Shown: piece after piece, positions 35,787 to 42,853 of the stretch | Position numbering within the stretch: position 1 is the first letter of the stretch | Layout of the letters: each line of letters opens with the position of its first letter | From: Desulfovibrio sp. DV | Lineage (GTDB): Bacteria; Desulfobacterota; Desulfovibrionia; Desulfovibrionales; Desulfovibrionaceae | Length of the DNA: 43,107 bases | NCBI RefSeq assembly: GCF_001936595.1 | Contig: NZ_MLBG01000025.1 | Span: 1-43,107, forward strand | Direction: 5' to 3' | Notes under the pieces: model-generated | Told to the model about the DNA's origin: nothing | Databases searched by the model: none | Seen by the model: only the letters and a program-made list of their open reading frames with translations | Translations under genes and position numbers: made by a program

Positions 35787-36476
35787 TTAACGGCTGGACG
35801 AGGGGGTGAGGTCGCAGGCGAGGCGTACCCCGGCCCGGGATACGCCTTTCGCGTGTTGCACGGCGAACCGGATCAATTCCGCCGAGCTCTTAAGCCCCAG
35901 CGATTCGATCATCGTGTACTTGTGGAATTCCACAGTCCGGGAGGAAATCCCCAGGATGGCGGCGGATTCCTTGACGGAAAACCCCTCGGTGATGAGTTGC
36001 AGCACTTCGCGCTGCCGGGGGGTCAGTTGGGAAAAGGCATCGCCGGACACGGCCGGTCTTTCCCGCTGGTACTGCAGCAATTCGCCGGCAAGCAGCGGCG
36101 TGATGTAGGTCTTCCCCTTGAGGCCGCAACTGATCGCCGTCAGAAGCTCCGACGAGGCGGAATGCTTGAGCACGTAGCCCAGTGCCCCGGCCTCGAAGGC
36201 GCTGGCGGCATAATCGACGTCCACATGCATGGTGAGGAAGATGACGGCCACGGACTTGTGCCGCTTCTTTATCTGGCGCACCGCGTCGATGCCGTTGAGC
36301 AGCGGCATGGAGATGTCCACCACCAGGGCGTCCGGGCGCAATCGGTCGACGGCCTCGAGCAGGGCACGGCCGTCCTCGACGATCCCGATCAGTTCGTAGT
36401 CGGGTTCGAGCAGGCCGCGTACACCCTCGGCCACCATGCGATGGTCATCGGCCAGTAGAATTCTCGGCTTCTTCAT
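35787..36476 (-). CDS. NarL/FixJ-type response regulator
   Basis: A 229-residue regulator. The receiver has ILLADDHR, phospho-acceptor D54 in LVVDISMPLLNG, T in IFLTMH and K in YVLKHSAS. The LuxR-type HTH reads LTPRQREVLQLITEGFSVKE and then ISSRTVEFHKYTMIESLGLK. The start overlaps the kinase gene by 32 nt. It probably controls the transporter/sulfatase-like cluster immediately upstream (38472-42853). Confidence 0.93.
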   Translation of the reverse strand: MKKPRILLADDHRMVAEGVRGLLEPDYELIGIVEDGRALLEAVDRLRPDALVVDISMPLLNGIDAVRQIKKRHKSVAVIFLTMHVDVDYAASAFEAGALGYVLKHSASSELLTAISCGLKGKTYITPLLAGELLQYQRERPAVSGDAFSQLTPRQREVLQLITEGFSVKESAAILGISSRTVEFHKYTMIESLGLKSSAELIRFAVQHAKGVSRAGVRLACDLTPSSSR

Positions 36477-38379
36477 GCCGCCTCTCCTCCAAGGGAACCG
36501 TCACGTGGATCACGGCGCCCTGGTATGGTTCCGAATGGATGGCGAATTCCCCTTTGGCGTACTGGACCCGCTCCCGCATGCTGGCCAGGCCGATGCCGGG
36601 AGTCAGCTTGGCGCATTGCGGCTTGAAGCCGACGCCGTCGTCCTTGATGGTTAATACCAGCTTCTCTTTCGTACCCTGCAGGGAAATGTCAACGCGACCG
36701 GCACGGGCGTGCTTGGCGATGTTGCGCAAGCCCTCCTGGACGACCCGGTAGAGGCACAGGGCCGTATCCAACGGAATTATCGCGAACTCGCCCTCAAAAC
36801 TGCAATCCACCACCAGGCCTTCCCGGTTGGAGAAACTGCCGCACATCGCCTGGATCGCCCTGACGAGGCCGAAATCCTTGAGCTTCGAGGGGTGCAACTC
36901 TCGGGATAGTGCATGCATGTCTTCGGAAAGGTTTATGATCTTTCCCTTCGCGTCGATGATTTCGTCCAGTATCCGGGCTCCCGGCTGCCGGATGTGCAGC
37001 TCCACGGTACCGATCTCGATGGCGATGGCGGCCAGGCGCTGGACGAAATCATCGTGGAATTCCCGCGACAGCCGGCTGAGTTCCTCTTCCTGGGAGGAAA
37101 TCAGCCGTCTGGCCAGGGTCTGCAGTTCGCGCTGGCTGCAGCGCAACGCGACTTCCGCCTTTTTCCGCTGCCGCAGGTTGAAAAACAGGCCCACGACCAG
37201 CAGCGACTGCAAGGCGAAAAGAACAGCCGCGCCGATGATGTACTTCTTGTAGCGATCCCAGGTCGTCGCTTCCCGGTAGGCGATGAAGGCGTCCGGCGGC
37301 AGCAGGTTCTCGTTGAGCTGGAAACGGTTGAGCTGTCGCCAATCGTAGAACGTGACCTTCGTATCCATCCCGTCGTCGAAAGGGATTTCGCCCGCCGGTT
37401 GCCCGGCCAGGACACGCAGGGCGATCTTCCCCGCCTGGAGTCCCTGCAGCCGCATGCTGACCATCGGTCCGCCGACGATCCCGTTGCCGAAGTAGGAGTC
37501 GTAAATGCCCCAGATCGGGCAGCCGGCGTAATTCGAGACGGACGGAATCACATCCCGGGGAACGAAGAACCGGCCCTTGGCGTCGACGAAGAGCGTCGAG
37601 AAGAAGATCAGGGAATCGGCGGGCAGGGACTGGCAACGGTCAAGGATCTCGCCAAGCCCGAGGCCGCCGAGGTCGATGCATTCGACGCGTGGGTACAAGG
37701 CCACGATGGCCTGGCGCAAGAGCACGGCCCTGACCTCGTCGTTCTCGAACGCCCCGTAGATGAGCACGGCATGCCGGGCTTCGGGTCGGAAACGCAACGC
37801 CGAAGCCACGAGCTGGCGGGCCAGTTCCGCCGGCTCCAGGACGCCGCTGACGCGCTTGCCAAAGGAGGCGGCGAGGATATTCTCCTTGTACGGCTCGGGA
37901 ATGTCGCAGACCACGACCGGAACCCCCGGGAAGACCTCCTCCGCCTGTTCGATCAGGAAATGCGCCGCCGGTACATCGACGGAGATGACGAGATCAATGG
38001 GAATGGCCCCATACCGCTGGTGCAGCAGGTCGGCGAGGGCCTGTCGCTGTTTCTCGTGGCGAAATCGCGATAAGTCCAGGTACTCGGAAAAAATCTGCAT
38101 TTTGAAGGGGGCTTTCTCCGAGAGCGCCTCCTGCAGTCCTTTCTCCGCCATTTGCGTGGCCGGAAAATCCAGGGGCATGGAGTACAGGATCACCACCCGC
38201 TTTTCGGTCCAGGCCGAAACAGGGCCTGGGGCGGCCAAGGCGTCCCCGCCGTGCGACGAGAAAAGCGGAGCCTCCGGGCTTCCCAGACAGGCAAGCCACA
38301 AAAGAAGCAGGCACAGGCGTCTTGTGGAAAACTGGGCAGCTGGCGTCCACAGAGGTGTTTTCAGGCGTTTTCCTCGCAA
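36445..38379 (-). CDS. Sensor histidine kinase with ABC-type substrate-binding domain
   Basis: A 644-residue kinase with a TTG start at 38379 (GGGAGG 5 nt upstream). A signal/TM segment (RLCLLLLWLACLGS) leads to an extracytoplasmic domain at 55-350 of the periplasmic-binding-protein/TrpX-like (ABC_sub_bind) type: RVVILYSMPLDFPATQMAEK, LVISVDVPAAHFLIEQ, VVVCDIPEPY, AVLIYGAFENDEVRA, then a domain-2 block with GCPIWGIYDSYFGNG. One TM follows (380-402), then HisKA_3 motif SREFHDDFVQRLAA (His442) and HATPase_c (VVQEGLRNIAKHA, DDGVGF, GIGLASMRERV). It should sense a small ligand directly, possibly the substrate of the adjacent MFS symporter. Confidence 0.92.
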   Translation of the reverse strand: MRGKRLKTPLWTPAAQFSTRRLCLLLLWLACLGSPEAPLFSSHGGDALAAPGPVSAWTEKRVVILYSMPLDFPATQMAEKGLQEALSEKAPFKMQIFSEYLDLSRFRHEKQRQALADLLHQRYGAIPIDLVISVDVPAAHFLIEQAEEVFPGVPVVVCDIPEPYKENILAASFGKRVSGVLEPAELARQLVASALRFRPEARHAVLIYGAFENDEVRAVLLRQAIVALYPRVECIDLGGLGLGEILDRCQSLPADSLIFFSTLFVDAKGRFFVPRDVIPSVSNYAGCPIWGIYDSYFGNGIVGGPMVSMRLQGLQAGKIALRVLAGQPAGEIPFDDGMDTKVTFYDWRQLNRFQLNENLLPPDAFIAYREATTWDRYKKYIIGAAVLFALQSLLVVGLFFNLRQRKKAEVALRCSQRELQTLARRLISSQEEELSRLSREFHDDFVQRLAAIAIEIGTVELHIRQPGARILDEIIDAKGKIINLSEDMHALSRELHPSKLKDFGLVRAIQAMCGSFSNREGLVVDCSFEGEFAIIPLDTALCLYRVVQEGLRNIAKHARAGRVDISLQGTKEKLVLTIKDDGVGFKPQCAKLTPGIGLASMRERVQYAKGEFAIHSEPYQGAVIHVTVPLEERRHEEAENSTGR

Positions 38380-38471: not shown

Positions 38472-39905
38472 CTATTCGATTTCCTCCAGGCTCTTGCCGC
38501 CGGTCCGCTTGCCCCACAGCAGCAGCGGAATGACCGGCACCAGGTACAGGATGCCCACGGCGTCGAAGACGCCGGCGAATCCGTAAGCCTGGTGGATCAG
38601 CGGAATGAGCGGTTGGGAGGCGGAAACGGACAGCCGGGCCAGCCCGTTCTGAAATCCGGTGGCGGTGTTGCGCATTGTGGTCGGGTAGGATTCGGCCGTA
38701 TAGGAGAACAGGATGAAGTTCACGGCCATGTTTACGACGGTCACGGTGAATCCGGCGCAGATGAGCCCCGTGAGGCTGTCCATGAAGGCGAAGGCGATGG
38801 CGCTTAAGCCCGTGGCCACGCTCAGAAGCGCCAGGGGGATCTTTCGGCCGCCCCGGTCCGAGACGAGGGAGGCCAGGAAGCAGCCGATGGGAACGCCGAT
38901 GCTGATGATGGTGGCCGCGGTGAGGCTCTCCGTGACCGTGAAGCCCTTCATCTTGAGCAGCTGCGTGGTCCACGTGGTCAGCAGGAAGCCGGCCGGGGTG
39001 ATGGTGACGAAAAGCAGGATCAGAAGCGTGGTCCGCAGCAGGTAGCGCGGGGTGAACATGCCGGTGATCACGCCCGTGACCTTGACTTTGGGTTCGACCT
39101 TTCGGCTGGCCGCGGACAGGTCGATGTCGCGGTGGGTCATGAAGGCGACCACAGCCTCGGCTTCGGCGACGCGCCCCCGGGAGACGAGCCAGCGGGGCGA
39201 TTCCTTGAGATATTTGAGGCCGAAGAAGAAGGCGACCAGGCCGACGCCGCCGGCGTAGAAGATGATGCGCCAGGCCTCGGGTCCCATGGGGATGATCAGG
39301 CGGCACAGGAAGGCGACGACGGGCACGGCGCAGAACCCCACGGCCGCCACCTTGCCCTGCCATTTCCCCCGGCTCTCGCAGGGCGACATCTCCGCGATAT
39401 AGGTCTGCGACGTGACCATCATGCAGAAGACGCCGAAGCCGGTCAGGGCGCGGAACACGGTGAAGACCGCGAAGCTGTCCGTGAAGCCGGTGACGATGGA
39501 GGAGATGGAAAAGACCAGGATGGAGCACAAAAACGTCTTGCGCCTGCCGATCAGGTCGGAGATGACCCCGCCGAGAAAGCCTCCCGAGGTCATGCCGATG
39601 AAATACCAGAAGACGATGGTGGCGATGTCGGTCATGGCCAGGTTCCAGGACTGGGACAGGGCTGGGGCCACGAAGCCGAAGTTCCAGTTGTCGAGCTGCT
39701 CGAAGAAGTAGGCGGCCATGATGATGAAGAACAGGAACTTATGGACGCCGGTGACGGGAATGCCGTCGAAATAGTTGTTGGCGAAACGACCCTTGGGCAG
39801 TGGCCCGCCGACGCTGTCCGGTGCCGGCGCGCAGGCTTCGTCCTGCCCCATGGACGCCGCGTTCCCGGCGTTTTCGAGGACCTGGTCCATGTTGTATTCG
39901 GCCAT
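38472..39905 (-). CDS. MFS symporter, sugar/aromatic-acid type
   Basis: A 477-residue transporter starting MAEYNMDQVLENAGNAASMG at 39905, with 12 TM segments after a hydrophilic 55-residue N-terminal extension. Motif A is present twice (DLIGRRKTF and SDRGGRKIP), and WYFIGMTSGGFLGG plus YIAEMSPCESRG match the sugar porter / AAHS group. The extension begins the membrane part at LFFIIMAAYFFEQLDNWNFG. It is 132 bp after the thioredoxin reductase-like gene and 92 bp before the kinase, all one strand. Import of a sulfated, phosphorylated or carboxylated substrate is inferred from context. Confidence 0.88.
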   Translation of the reverse strand: MAEYNMDQVLENAGNAASMGQDEACAPAPDSVGGPLPKGRFANNYFDGIPVTGVHKFLFFIIMAAYFFEQLDNWNFGFVAPALSQSWNLAMTDIATIVFWYFIGMTSGGFLGGVISDLIGRRKTFLCSILVFSISSIVTGFTDSFAVFTVFRALTGFGVFCMMVTSQTYIAEMSPCESRGKWQGKVAAVGFCAVPVVAFLCRLIIPMGPEAWRIIFYAGGVGLVAFFFGLKYLKESPRWLVSRGRVAEAEAVVAFMTHRDIDLSAASRKVEPKVKVTGVITGMFTPRYLLRTTLLILLFVTITPAGFLLTTWTTQLLKMKGFTVTESLTAATIISIGVPIGCFLASLVSDRGGRKIPLALLSVATGLSAIAFAFMDSLTGLICAGFTVTVVNMAVNFILFSYTAESYPTTMRNTATGFQNGLARLSVSASQPLIPLIHQAYGFAGVFDAVGILYLVPVIPLLLWGKRTGGKSLEEIE

Positions 39906-40037: not shown

Positions 40038-40958
40038 CTACCGGCAGCGCAGAAACCGTTCCGCCGACAAGGCGGCCACGGTGCCGTCGGCCACGGCGGT
40101 GGTGATCTGGCGGAAGGGCTTGTCCACGATGTCGCCGGCCGCGAAGACGCCCGGCAGGCTGGTGGACGCATCCGGCGCGGCCGGGATGTAGCCGGCCTTG
40201 GTCAGTTCGATCTGATTTTTAAACAGCGCATTGTTGGGGAGCTGGCCCAGGAAGACGAAGACGCCGTCCACGGGCTCGCGCCAAGTCCTGCCTGCGGCGG
40301 TGTCTTCCAGCACGGCCGCCGTCAGCCGTCCGTCGACCGTTTCCAGGTCCACCACCCGGGTTCCGGTGTGGCCCTCGGCCTTGCCCGAGGCGAACAACGC
40401 CTCCTGGGTGGTGGCCGCGGCGAAGAACCTGGGCATGATCTCGACAAGGGTGACGTGGGCCACGCCGAGGGACAGGAGGTAGAGGCTCTCGTCGAAGGCG
40501 CTGTTGCCCCCGCCGGTCACCAGGACCCGCTTGCCGGCGTAGGGCGCACCGTCGCAGATGGCGCAGTGGTGGATCTGGTCGCATTCGGTGGGGACGTCGA
40601 GCGGCACGGGCTTGCGTCCGGTGGCCAGGATGACGGCCGGGGCGCGGTACACGGCCTCGTCGGTTTCGGCCGTCTTCACCTCGCCGGCCAAGTCCAGGCG
40701 CTCGATCTCGCAGACTTCCTCCACCGGCACGTCCAGGCTGTCCATGTGCTGCCGCATCCGGTCCATGAGCTCCATGCCATGGATGGACGGATAGGAGGGG
40801 AAGTTCTCCACCGTGTAGGTGGAATTGGCCAGGCCTCCCGTGATGTTGGATTCGAGGACGATGGCCTTGAGCTTGGCCCGGGCGGCGTAGATGGCGGCGG
40901 TCATGCCGGCCGGCCCGCCGCCGAGGATGAGGCAGTCGTAGTGGTATTCCGGTTTCAT
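40038..40958 (-). CDS. Thioredoxin reductase-like FAD/NAD(P)H oxidoreductase
   Basis: A 306-residue flavoprotein of the TrxB fold. The FAD-binding motif is CLILGGGPAGMTAAIYAARA; the redox pair C132-A-I-C135 sits in HHCAICDGAPY; the NAD(P)H motif is VLVTGGGNSAFDESLYL; the C-terminal FAD motif is PGVFAAGDIVD. It is separated by only 7 bp from the thioredoxin-like gene, which should be its partner. The NADP-binding 'HRRxxxR' signature is replaced by VEIMPRFFAA, so the nucleotide or electron donor may differ from standard TrxB. Confidence 0.9.
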   Translation of the reverse strand: MKPEYHYDCLILGGGPAGMTAAIYAARAKLKAIVLESNITGGLANSTYTVENFPSYPSIHGMELMDRMRQHMDSLDVPVEEVCEIERLDLAGEVKTAETDEAVYRAPAVILATGRKPVPLDVPTECDQIHHCAICDGAPYAGKRVLVTGGGNSAFDESLYLLSLGVAHVTLVEIMPRFFAAATTQEALFASGKAEGHTGTRVVDLETVDGRLTAAVLEDTAAGRTWREPVDGVFVFLGQLPNNALFKNQIELTKAGYIPAAPDASTSLPGVFAAGDIVDKPFRQITTAVADGTVAALSAERFLRCR

Positions 40959-40965
40959 GGCGTGG

Positions 40966-41274
40966 CTACCCCATCTGGTACAGGGCCAGAAGTTCCTTGG
41001 GATTCATGAGACCGGTCTTGGTCCGTCGCACCGCCCCGTCCTTGATGACGCACACGGTGGGGGCCCGCTCGGCTCCGAGCGCCTTGGCCGCGTCGGGATT
41101 CTTCTGGATGTCGAGCCCCAACAGCACGGCGGCGGGCATGAGCTGGCCGAACTTTTCCAGGACCTTCTCCATGTTCTTGCAGTGGGGGCACAGTTCCTTG
41201 AACACGATGCACACGCCGGCCGGCGTGGCCGCGATCGTTTCCTTGTAGTCGGTATTGGTGATTTCCTTGATCAT
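40966..41274 (-). CDS. Small thioredoxin-like protein with CPHC active site
   Basis: A 102-residue protein with active site C29-P-H-C32 in VFKELCPHCKNMEKVL. The cis-Pro region is RAPTVCVIKDG and the C-terminal helix ends LLALYQMG. CPHC is the DsbA-type dipeptide, giving a more oxidising potential than CGPC. Start ATG 41274 after GGAG; it lacks a signal peptide, so it is cytosolic. Sandwiched between the sulfatase-like and reductase genes. Confidence 0.87.
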   Translation of the reverse strand: MIKEITNTDYKETIAATPAGVCIVFKELCPHCKNMEKVLEKFGQLMPAAVLLGLDIQKNPDAAKALGAERAPTVCVIKDGAVRRTKTGLMNPKELLALYQMG

Positions 41275-41326: not shown

Positions 41327-42853
41327 TTAGAGGGTCTTGAGCTCACCGATGTACAACTTGATCTTTTGCAGCAGGTCGGCGGCCAGATCCTTGTTGTCGG
41401 CGATGATGTTCTCGAGTTGGAAGGGATCCTTGCGGCGATCATAGAGTTCGTCGCTGTCGGGCACTTCCTGCTTGGCCCCGGCGGTGCAGGACCACATGGC
41501 CTCGTCCTTCATAATCTCCTTGGCGGGGCTGTCGGCACTGACGTAATCGCGCTGGCTGGCGTCTTTCAGCAGCCAGTGGATGAAGGTGTGGTCTTCGGTG
41601 ATAATGGACCAGGACATGCCGTAGTAACCGGCGATGGCAAAGTCGCGCACTTTCTCGACCTGGCCGCGCATCATGGGAAGCAGATCCTTACCCTGCATGT
41701 CGATACAGCCGTAGACCGGGAAACCGTGGCCGCCGTCCAGGTCGTTGACATCCTGATGCAGGCCCAGGGCGCTTAGGATCGTGGGCGCGACATCCACGTT
41801 CTGGACGAAGCCCTTGAGGCGTTTGCCGCCCTCAAGGCCCGGGACGTGCATCAGAAGCGGCACGTGTACGAGTTCCTCGTAGGGCCAGGGCCGGCACTTG
41901 CGCATGATGCCGTGGCCGTGCTCCCCCTTGCCCATGGGCTGGCCGTGGTCGCTGGTGATGATAACCATGGTCTCGTCCCACAGGCCCTGGTCGCGGATGG
42001 AATCGAGGAGCTTGCCGATCTGCTTGTCCACGAGCTCGATATTCTCGGAATACAAGGCCCGGATGTGGGCGCACTCCTCGTCGGTGATGCGGCCTTCGAC
42101 AGGTGTCCAGGGCGCGAGCAGCAGCGGGTTGCCCGGCCACTCGGGATCGTAGGGACAGGGCTCCTTGGTCCAGACCGATGGCGGATCCCAAGGCTCGTGG
42201 GGATCGAAGGAATCGATCCAGAGCATGAAGGGGCGACTCTTGATGCGGATGTCACGCAGCCAGCGGTCGGCCTCGCGGGCCACGACGCTCACGTAGTTGT
42301 CGTCTTCGCTGCGCCACTGCTGCCGAAACTTGAGGAAGCACTCGATTTCCTCGAGCAGAGCCTTGCTCGCGTCGTCGATCAGTTCGCCCTTCTCGTTGTA
42401 GACCATGGTCGGCGACGTGTAGTCGATGGGGTGCATGCCAGGGTCGAGGGGCTCGTCGGCGTAGGTGGTGTGGTCGAGTTCGTGGCCGGGGCAGAACTTC
42501 ACGTAGTCAAAGCCCCGGGAGTAGCCGTATTTGGGCAGGCGCATGGGCGGGGTGTCATAGACCAGGGCGGTCTGCACCTTGCGGCCCCACAGGATGTCGG
42601 TGAGCGTCGTGTCGTCCTGGGACAGGGGCTGCCAGCCGGCAAAGGGCAAGGTAAAGCGGCCGGTCATCAGGGCCCGGCGCACCGGGACGGTGGGCAGACC
42701 CTCGCTGTAGGCGTTCTCGAAGAGGAAGCCGTTGCGCGCGAAACGGTCGAGGTTCGGCGTCTTCACCGTTTTGTTCCCGTAGCAGCCTAAATAGTTGTAC
42801 TGCAATGTATCGAGCATGATGAAGACGACATTTTTGATTTTCTTGTCCGCCAT
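41327..42853 (-). CDS. Sulfatase-superfamily hydrolase with Thr at the formylglycine position
   Basis: A 508-residue alkaline-phosphatase-superfamily enzyme. The N-terminal metal site is NVVFIMLDTLQYNYLGCYG (D15). The sulfatase signature normally reads C/S-x-P-x-R; here it is T55-V-P-V-R59 in LPTVPVRRALMTGR, so the residue converted to formylglycine is Thr. The later metal-binding SDHGQ and GEHGHGIMRK motifs are intact. There is no signal peptide, suggesting cytosolic action on an imported substrate. Length fits sulfatases and phosphonate monoester hydrolases. It is the first gene of the sulfatase-thioredoxin-reductase-MFS unit. Thr nucleophiles occur in NPP phosphodiesterases and phosphopentomutase, so a phosphoester or phosphonate substrate is an alternative. 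Confidence 0.85.
   Translation of the reverse strand: MADKKIKNVVFIMLDTLQYNYLGCYGNKTVKTPNLDRFARNGFLFENAYSEGLPTVPVRRALMTGRFTLPFAGWQPLSQDDTTLTDILWGRKVQTALVYDTPPMRLPKYGYSRGFDYVKFCPGHELDHTTYADEPLDPGMHPIDYTSPTMVYNEKGELIDDASKALLEEIECFLKFRQQWRSEDDNYVSVVAREADRWLRDIRIKSRPFMLWIDSFDPHEPWDPPSVWTKEPCPYDPEWPGNPLLLAPWTPVEGRITDEECAHIRALYSENIELVDKQIGKLLDSIRDQGLWDETMVIITSDHGQPMGKGEHGHGIMRKCRPWPYEELVHVPLLMHVPGLEGGKRLKGFVQNVDVAPTILSALGLHQDVNDLDGGHGFPVYGCIDMQGKDLLPMMRGQVEKVRDFAIAGYYGMSWSIITEDHTFIHWLLKDASQRDYVSADSPAKEIMKDEAMWSCTAGAKQEVPDSDELYDRRKDPFQLENIIADNKDLAADLLQKIKLYIGELKTL

Follow-up and report, generated by a model that had tools for sequence, protein, structure and literature searches.

The gene at positions 41327-42853 of the stretch of DNA analysed here (the window; 43,107 nucleotides from Desulfovibrio sp. 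DV) encodes a protein that resembles formylglycine sulfatases, yet it has a threonine in place of the cysteine or serine from which these enzymes form their nucleophile. This raises the question whether the threonine is a genuine family trait and, if so, what kind of reaction such a protein might catalyse. Translation of the gene gives 508 residues without internal stops, including the motif E51-G-L-P-T55-V-P-V-R59-R. Together with the alignments described below, this bears out the earlier note on this DNA, which read T55-V-P-V-R59 as standing in place of C/S-x-P-x-R. The gene and the codons of the residues discussed are as follows.

41327..42853, minus strand: Thr-type PF00884 enzyme (sulfatase/alkaline-phosphatase fold) of 508 aa, from Pfam, alignment and AF2 model
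42806..42811, minus strand: codons of Asp15 (presumed metal ligand) and Thr16, from alignment
42689..42691, minus strand: codon of Thr55, the presumed nucleophile
42677..42679, minus strand: codon of Arg59, the sulfatase Arg of C-x-P-x-R
42554..42556, minus strand: codon of Asp100, at the place of Lys in sulfatase G-K-x-H
42197..42199, minus strand: codon of His219 (motif FDPHEPW), which corresponds to sulfatase His211
41945..41950, minus strand: codons of Asp302-His303, presumed metal ligands
41897..41899, minus strand: codon of Lys319, presumed to bind the anion

Residues 7-364 match the Pfam family PF00884 (Sulfatase), the domain of S1 sulfatases, with 153.9 bits (cut-off 25), and the Thr enzyme is a variant within this known superfamily. 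PF01663 also matches above its cut-off (42.7 against 23 bits, best stretch residues 268-305), but scores 111 bits less than PF00884. None of the NCBIfam models matched the protein at its cut-off; weak matches were obtained for LtaS (38.5 bits, cut-off 970) and YejM (35 bits, cut-off 825). The nearest PDB sequences, whether found with the protein itself or with the family profile, are sulfatases and phosphonate monoester hydrolases. The contig ends 254 bp beyond the start of the gene, which limits the view of the gene's surroundings to the downstream side. Elsewhere in the host genome (4.85 Mb, 219 contigs) there is one other PF00884 match (E 1e-3), a canonical Cys sulfatase that has a hydrophobic N-terminal stretch as well as SCTPTR, GKWH and SDNG. 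That gene shares its contig with an FGE-like match, and the four radical-SAM matches of the host all score under the maturase cut-off.

Relatives were retrieved with the peptides FDPHEPW and HGHG[IL]MRK, which yielded at least 589 stretches, and alignment A2 (83 rows) was based on the best 80 of 561 relatives, found in 79 loci. Residues T55, P57, R59, H219, D302, H303 and K319 are invariant in A2 (83/83 rows), and D15 is nearly so. Since the search peptides exclude the nucleophile motif, the threonine count is not circular. Loci L004-L015, the fragments L039, L076 and L084, and matches weaker than 1e-49 stand outside A2; L039 has the threonine, and the L076 and L084 fragments end short of the nucleophile site. 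Among 119 genomes of the same family, 11 encode proteins of this kind, and all 13 of these proteins, the window's included, carry threonine. In alignments with canonical Cys sulfatases from neighbouring loci T55 falls on their Cys, and in the PDB alignments its place is held by Ser in 7oz8 and by Ala in 4uph. Carriers of the best 80 of 561 relatives include Desulfobacterota, SAR324, Chloroflexota, Poribacteria, Planctomycetota and Armatimonadota, as well as the archaeal Bathyarchaeota, Thermoprotei and Thermoplasmata. A sequencing error or isolated mutation is therefore ruled out by the invariance of the threonine, and the outcome that the earlier note had regarded as fatal to its claim, Cys or Ser in all relatives, is absent. 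These results confirm that the Thr family is a real clade present in Bacteria and Archaea.

The nucleophile is not the only altered position. From 199 PF00884-like matches in the loci examined we obtained 172 non-redundant proteins, which comprise 114 Thr, 45 canonical Cys, 7 altered-site Cys and 6 unclassed ones, five rows (2 Thr, 3 Cys) having been classed by visual inspection of the alignment. Position 16 is Ser/Thr in 113 of the 114 Thr rows, the remaining one having a gap, and Asp/Gln/Glu in 44/45 canonical rows. Position 100 is Asp in 113/114 Thr rows and Lys/Arg in 43/45 canonical ones, and a G-[KR]-x-H string near position 100 occurs in 39/45 canonical and 3/114 Thr rows. Hence the statement of the earlier note that the metal motifs are kept holds for D15, D302 and H303, whereas the second sulfatase metal Asp is T16. 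Compared with S1 formylglycine sulfatases (SulfAtlas S1), the Thr family thus shares the fold, x-P-x-R, H219, K319, D15 and D302, and differs in having Thr instead of Cys/Ser, Ser/Thr instead of the second metal Asp and Asp instead of Lys113, and in lacking His115. The sulfatase calcium site, given in the available part of PMC5066984 as Asp13, Asp14, Asp317 and Asn318, corresponds to D15, T16, D302 and H303, so that two of its four residues are kept; this is a soft measure because, according to the same part, Asp14 and Asn318 are conserved in 76% and 61% of sulfatases, respectively. His at the Asp-His site was seen in at least 19 of the 45 canonical rows. A standard formylglycine sulfatase is ruled out by Thr for Cys/Ser in [CS]-x-P-x-R and by Asp100 for Lys113.

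Seven relatives combine the altered site with a cysteine in the motif PCMPARR (L143:1430-2911(+), L145, L146, L147, L150, L151 and L153); they carry D-[ST], Asp for Lys113, and FDPHEP. According to the accessible part of PMC5066984, Lys113 of G-K-x-H is present in 94% of 4058 formylglycine sulfatases and replaced by Asp in 87; these 87 sequences may be of the altered-Cys kind described here. Because the seven Cys relatives and 87/4058 SulfAtlas sequences share the Asp, the changes of the altered site are not due to Thr alone, and the idea that loss of Lys113/His115 follows from Thr is ruled out, the seven Cys relatives being without the pair too. A tree was built by a quick method from 99 rows (less than 62% mutual identity, 380 aa or more) after masking of query columns 53-58, which include the nucleophile; it has some long branches and its root was placed on the canonical rows. 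In this tree 59 Thr and altered-Cys rows stand apart from 40 canonical ones (SH-aLRT 99), and all four altered-Cys rows included lie inside the Thr group. This, together with the 83/83 rows of A2, reveals the clade sharing Thr that the earlier note had named as the sign of a real functional group. The fewest Thr/Cys changes on the tree are 3, the starred branches forcing 2; rooted on the canonical side, the tree is most simply explained by a single change to Thr followed by one or two returns to Cys. Since Cys members nest inside the Thr family, both nucleophiles appear to have served at one altered site. A further sulfatase-like protein, encoded at L063:5550-6971(+) and left unclassed, reads GIPTHPSFT around the nucleophile position and may be another kind of Thr variant.

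An AF2 model of the window protein, for which 82 relatives served as alignment, was predicted with high confidence (pLDDT 90.8, pTM 0.92). In the model D15 follows strand 8-14, T55 is the first residue of helix 55-64, D100 follows strand 94-99, and D302/H303 follow strand 295-300, a predicted placing of active-site residues as expected of the alkaline-phosphatase fold. The structure matches listed by VIA-align are sulfatases, phosphonate monoester hydrolases and YejM; the best is 6hr5 (Z 34.2, 352 residues, 2.5 A), followed by 4upl (33.1) and 7oz8 (32.6), and absence from these tables does not count against the kinship of a fold. Phosphonate monoester hydrolases (2vqr, 2w8s, 4uph) score about 30, in the range 29.8-30.9 when taken with the Mn arylsulfatase 9koq. 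The Asp, Asp, His metal set is common to the Thr family (D302 and H303 invariant, D15 nearly so), these hydrolases and 9koq. Phosphonate monoester hydrolases use a Cys/formylglycine nucleophile, whereas the window protein has T55. Likewise 9koq has a Cys/formylglycine nucleophile and Gln after the first Asp, as given in the available part of PMC12421950, where the Thr family has Thr and Ser/Thr, respectively. In an Enterococcus arylsulfatase two Asp, the nucleophile and a His bind Mn, and this His is common to phosphonate monoester hydrolases (PMC12421950, available part). A His occurs at the Asp-His site of many true sulfatases according to the part of PMC5066984 at hand, and H303 is for that reason no pointer to phosphate.

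The nucleotide pyrophosphatases/phosphodiesterases (NPPs; PF01663) have a Thr nucleophile and a two-zinc site, and PF01663 is their best family. The Thr enzyme differs from them in that PF00884 scores best although PF01663 passes its cut-off, and the context of its nucleophile, PTxPxR, is unlike that of NPPs.

The genes that follow the Thr gene in the window encode a putative redox pair, and two cysteines of the enzyme may bear on it.

40966..41274, minus strand: CPHC thioredoxin of 102 aa, starting 52 bp after the enzyme stop; best PDB match 2l6c/2l6d
40038..40958, minus strand: thioredoxin reductase-like flavoprotein of 306 aa with CAIC (TIGR01292 247.7 bits, below the cut-off of 343.45)
42155..42157, minus strand: codon of Cys233, specific to the thioredoxin-linked subclade
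41486..41488, minus strand: codon of Cys456, specific to the thioredoxin-linked subclade

The window thioredoxin matches 2l6c/2l6d with 82.6 bits (the next PDB match having 32.8) and with 53% identity over 79 residues, and both have CPHC, as expected of a desulfothioredoxin; among the loci examined the thioredoxin nearest 2l6c is that of L179 (78% identity over 79 residues). We take 2l6c/2l6d to be the desulfothioredoxin DvTrx3 of Desulfovibrio vulgaris, and DvTR3 to be its reductase; in the window, too, a reductase gene is adjacent. The function of the TR3/Trx3 system is called still unknown, and DvTrx3 is described as having disulfide isomerase rather than reductase activity, in the available part of PMC5627308, which makes no mention of "sulfatase".

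Among the loci of the best 80 of 561 relatives, a scan with a thioredoxin profile (E 1e-3, open frames of at least 80 codons) detected a thioredoxin gene in 18 of the 26 loci of the subclade with the HGHG insertion, besides the window, and in none of the 53 other loci; for L039, L076 and L084 subclade membership was set by this insertion. A reductase gene lies beside the thioredoxin in 17 of the 18 linked loci and in the window, and the active sites of the 19 linked thioredoxins are CPHC (14), CPNC (2), CPFC (2) and CPYC (1). Five of the eight unlinked subclade loci share an assembly with a linked one, namely L024, L026, L029 and L036 with L035, and L076 with L031. In 288 genomes of the same family the enzyme (E 1e-40) was found in 35 and the thioredoxin (E 1e-12) in 33, with both in 32, the enzyme only in 3 (G040, G631 and G633) and the thioredoxin only in 1 (Fisher p 7e-38, kinship ignored). 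The thioredoxin-only genome is 54% complete and one of the three enzyme-only genomes 69% complete. The 32 genomes with both span 11 genera; in the window's genus four have both and ten neither. A sample of 395 genomes of the phylum, the window's included, contained the enzyme in 6, the thioredoxin in 4 and both in 4. In G019 and G691 enzyme and thioredoxin are encoded on separate contigs, which argues that the link is not mere adjacency, fragmented though these assemblies are. Gene-cassette transfer or joint inheritance may explain part of the co-occurrence. Together, linkage and co-occurrence support the CPHC thioredoxin pair as partner of the enzyme. No link between a sulfatase and a thioredoxin was found among the open-licence PMC papers listed.

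Cys456 is present in 26/26 subclade rows and 2/57 elsewhere, and Cys233 in 24/26 subclade rows and 0/57 elsewhere (best 80 of 561 relatives); the subclade proteins without Cys233 are that of L025 and the second one of L031. Judged from this distribution, the two cysteines may be the contact point with the thioredoxin. The earlier note had missed the loss of the second Asp and of Lys113/His115, the presence of Cys in the same altered site, and the tie to the CPHC thioredoxin. A protein of about 100 aa is encoded after the reductase in L032:9950-10252(+), L034:9964-10326(+) and L184 (at about 3113, plus strand); Pfam gave no match for the one of L032.

Further downstream the window contains the following genes.

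38472..39905, minus strand: MFS transporter (Pfam, NCBIfam; the best NCBIfam model, an aromatic acid/H+ symport subfamily, is below cut-off)
36445..38379, minus strand: sensor histidine kinase (HisKA_3, HATPase_c; Pfam, NCBIfam), with a putative operon link

The gene lists of the other loci come from a greedy ORF caller, which picks shadow ORFs in GC-rich DNA. Across loci the neighbours tested with Pfam include importers of several classes and regulators of the Crp or sigma54 type. Transporters near Thr genes are of the TRAP (by Pfam in L025, L032 and L035), tripartite tricarboxylate, CitMHS/Na_sulph_symp, MFS and BCCT types, the latter with an MttB-like methyltransferase, and further Pfam-tested examples are a member of a Na+/H+ antiporter family and a family-5 solute-binding protein. 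Because the transporter classes vary by locus, no single substrate emerges, and the Pfam-tested neighbouring transporters have no solute in common. Since no signal peptide was seen by eye, the Thr enzyme is probably cytosolic and would cleave imported compounds. One assembly of Mailhella merdavium has at least six paralogues, in L024, L026, L029, L035 and L036 (two), and members of the TRAP gene clusters occur in 4 of these 5 loci; these paralogues and their TRAP-cluster neighbours suggest several substrates. In L028:9980-12869(+) and L030:9964-12819(+) a BCCT transporter and an MttB-like methyltransferase (identified by Pfam in L028 and by sequence cluster in L030) are encoded after the Thr enzyme, its thioredoxin and the reductase, hinting at a betaine-like compound in the two organisms. 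A URO-D type protein precedes the Thr gene in L073:2139-3200(+) and L091:2175-3233(+) (by Pfam for L091 alone); this pairing recurs and could indicate a methyl-transfer pathway. The regulator encoded at L016:1771-3558(+), upstream of the genes for a TRAP transporter and for the Thr enzyme, has a PEP_hydrolase-like domain fused to a sigma54 activator domain. Locus L088:1394-5561(+) has three consecutive PF00884 genes of the Thr, Cys and Thr type, followed by an ABC solute-binding protein (SBP_bac_1).

We propose, with a probability of about 0.6, that the window protein is a cytosolic metal-dependent ester hydrolase that uses a Thr nucleophile on an imported organic compound and has the thioredoxin pair as partner. 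Unmodified Thr55 would attack the phosphorus or, less likely, the sulfur of a small organic ester, and the resulting covalent Thr intermediate would then be hydrolysed by water. One transition metal would be bound by D15, T55, D302 and H303, and the substrate would probably be of the phospho-ester type, which is preferred over a sulfate ester on account of the habits of the superfamily. In the subclade, the CPHC thioredoxin and its reductase would be the functional partner of the enzyme, perhaps acting on Cys233/Cys456. That Thr acts directly as nucleophile, as the earlier note suggested, appears to be the best reading also in view of the confident sulfatase-fold model, in which T55 starts a helix; its companion claim, that formylglycine cannot form from Thr, accords with the available part of the SulfAtlas paper, by which such formation was never shown (PMC5066984). 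The accessible part of the same paper proposes that His115 acts as base in the elimination of sulfate from the diol of formylglycine. The absence of Lys113/His115 with R59, H219 and K319 kept fits a Thr enzyme, which would have no such diol, but the pair is missing from the seven Cys relatives too.

Whether the group cleaved might after all be sulfate deserves some weight, although we consider it unlikely. Thr would then stand in for formylglycine, the maturation enzyme would be dispensable, and imported organosulfates would be a source of sulfate and carbon for sulfate reducers. The sequence and structure neighbours are mostly sulfatases, the anion-binding R59, H219 and K319 are retained, and many of the carriers (best 80 of 561 relatives) bear names of sulfate-reducing organisms. 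A canonical Cys sulfatase is encoded in 12 of the 79 loci of these relatives, for instance in the Thr-Cys-Thr array of L088, but 11 of these 12 loci lie outside the window's subclade. The base for sulfate release from formylglycine, His115, is absent, a need for sulfate is not evident in the archaeal and Chloroflexota carriers, and no sulfatase with an unmodified Thr was found among the open-licence PMC papers listed. A more radical reading, which we regard as a long shot, would couple ester cleavage to redox chemistry in the subclade: Thr55, or Cys456 directly, would take the sulfuryl or phosphoryl group, a Cys thiolate would accept it or a disulfide with Cys233 would form, and thioredoxin and reductase would regenerate the enzyme. 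The model for this is APS/PAPS reductase, from which thioredoxin frees sulfite. Energetically it would need an activated ester. If true, sulfate reducers could make sulfite from an organosulfate without the ATP-costly activation of sulfate, and the orphan desulfothioredoxin pair would have its missing job.

Transferases of the alkaline-phosphatase superfamily use Thr, and TxNxE is typical of LtaS; the LtaS/EptA kind has an N-terminal membrane part. We presume that the other Thr-bearing PF00884 proteins of PMC5066984 are of this kind. In the available part of that paper Thr is reported for 30/59 Pfam PF00884 seed sequences, and eleven relatives of a single Streptococcus protein are said to have TxNxE. 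That the window protein is such a phospho- or sulfo-transferase, with Thr carrying the group to another acceptor, is doubtful. The Thr is common to both, LtaS and YejM match weakly and YejM is among the structure matches, but the scores are far under the curated cut-offs for LtaS and phosphoethanolamine transferase, TVPVR is found instead of TxNxE, strand 1 begins at residue 8 of the model, which would leave no room for an N-terminal membrane part, and several neighbours belong to importer families. With the canonical nucleophile and Lys113/His115 lost, the family might also be catalytically dead and serve in binding or regulation; this is a very remote prospect, given that Thr55, R59, H219, D302, H303 and K319 are invariant over two domains (83/83 rows, best 80 of 561 relatives).

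No description of the PTxPxR Thr family was found among the open-licence PMC papers listed. PF00884 alone leads to the label "sulfatase", which is probably wrong for this family because formylglycine chemistry is impossible by current knowledge and the dedicated base is absent. With Cys members nested in the Thr family, the Thr/Cys switch of the superfamily can be tested by mutation. Of the new findings, the tie to the thioredoxin lends itself best to testing; for a redox pair of still unknown function, the near-perfect co-occurrence provides a first candidate partner.
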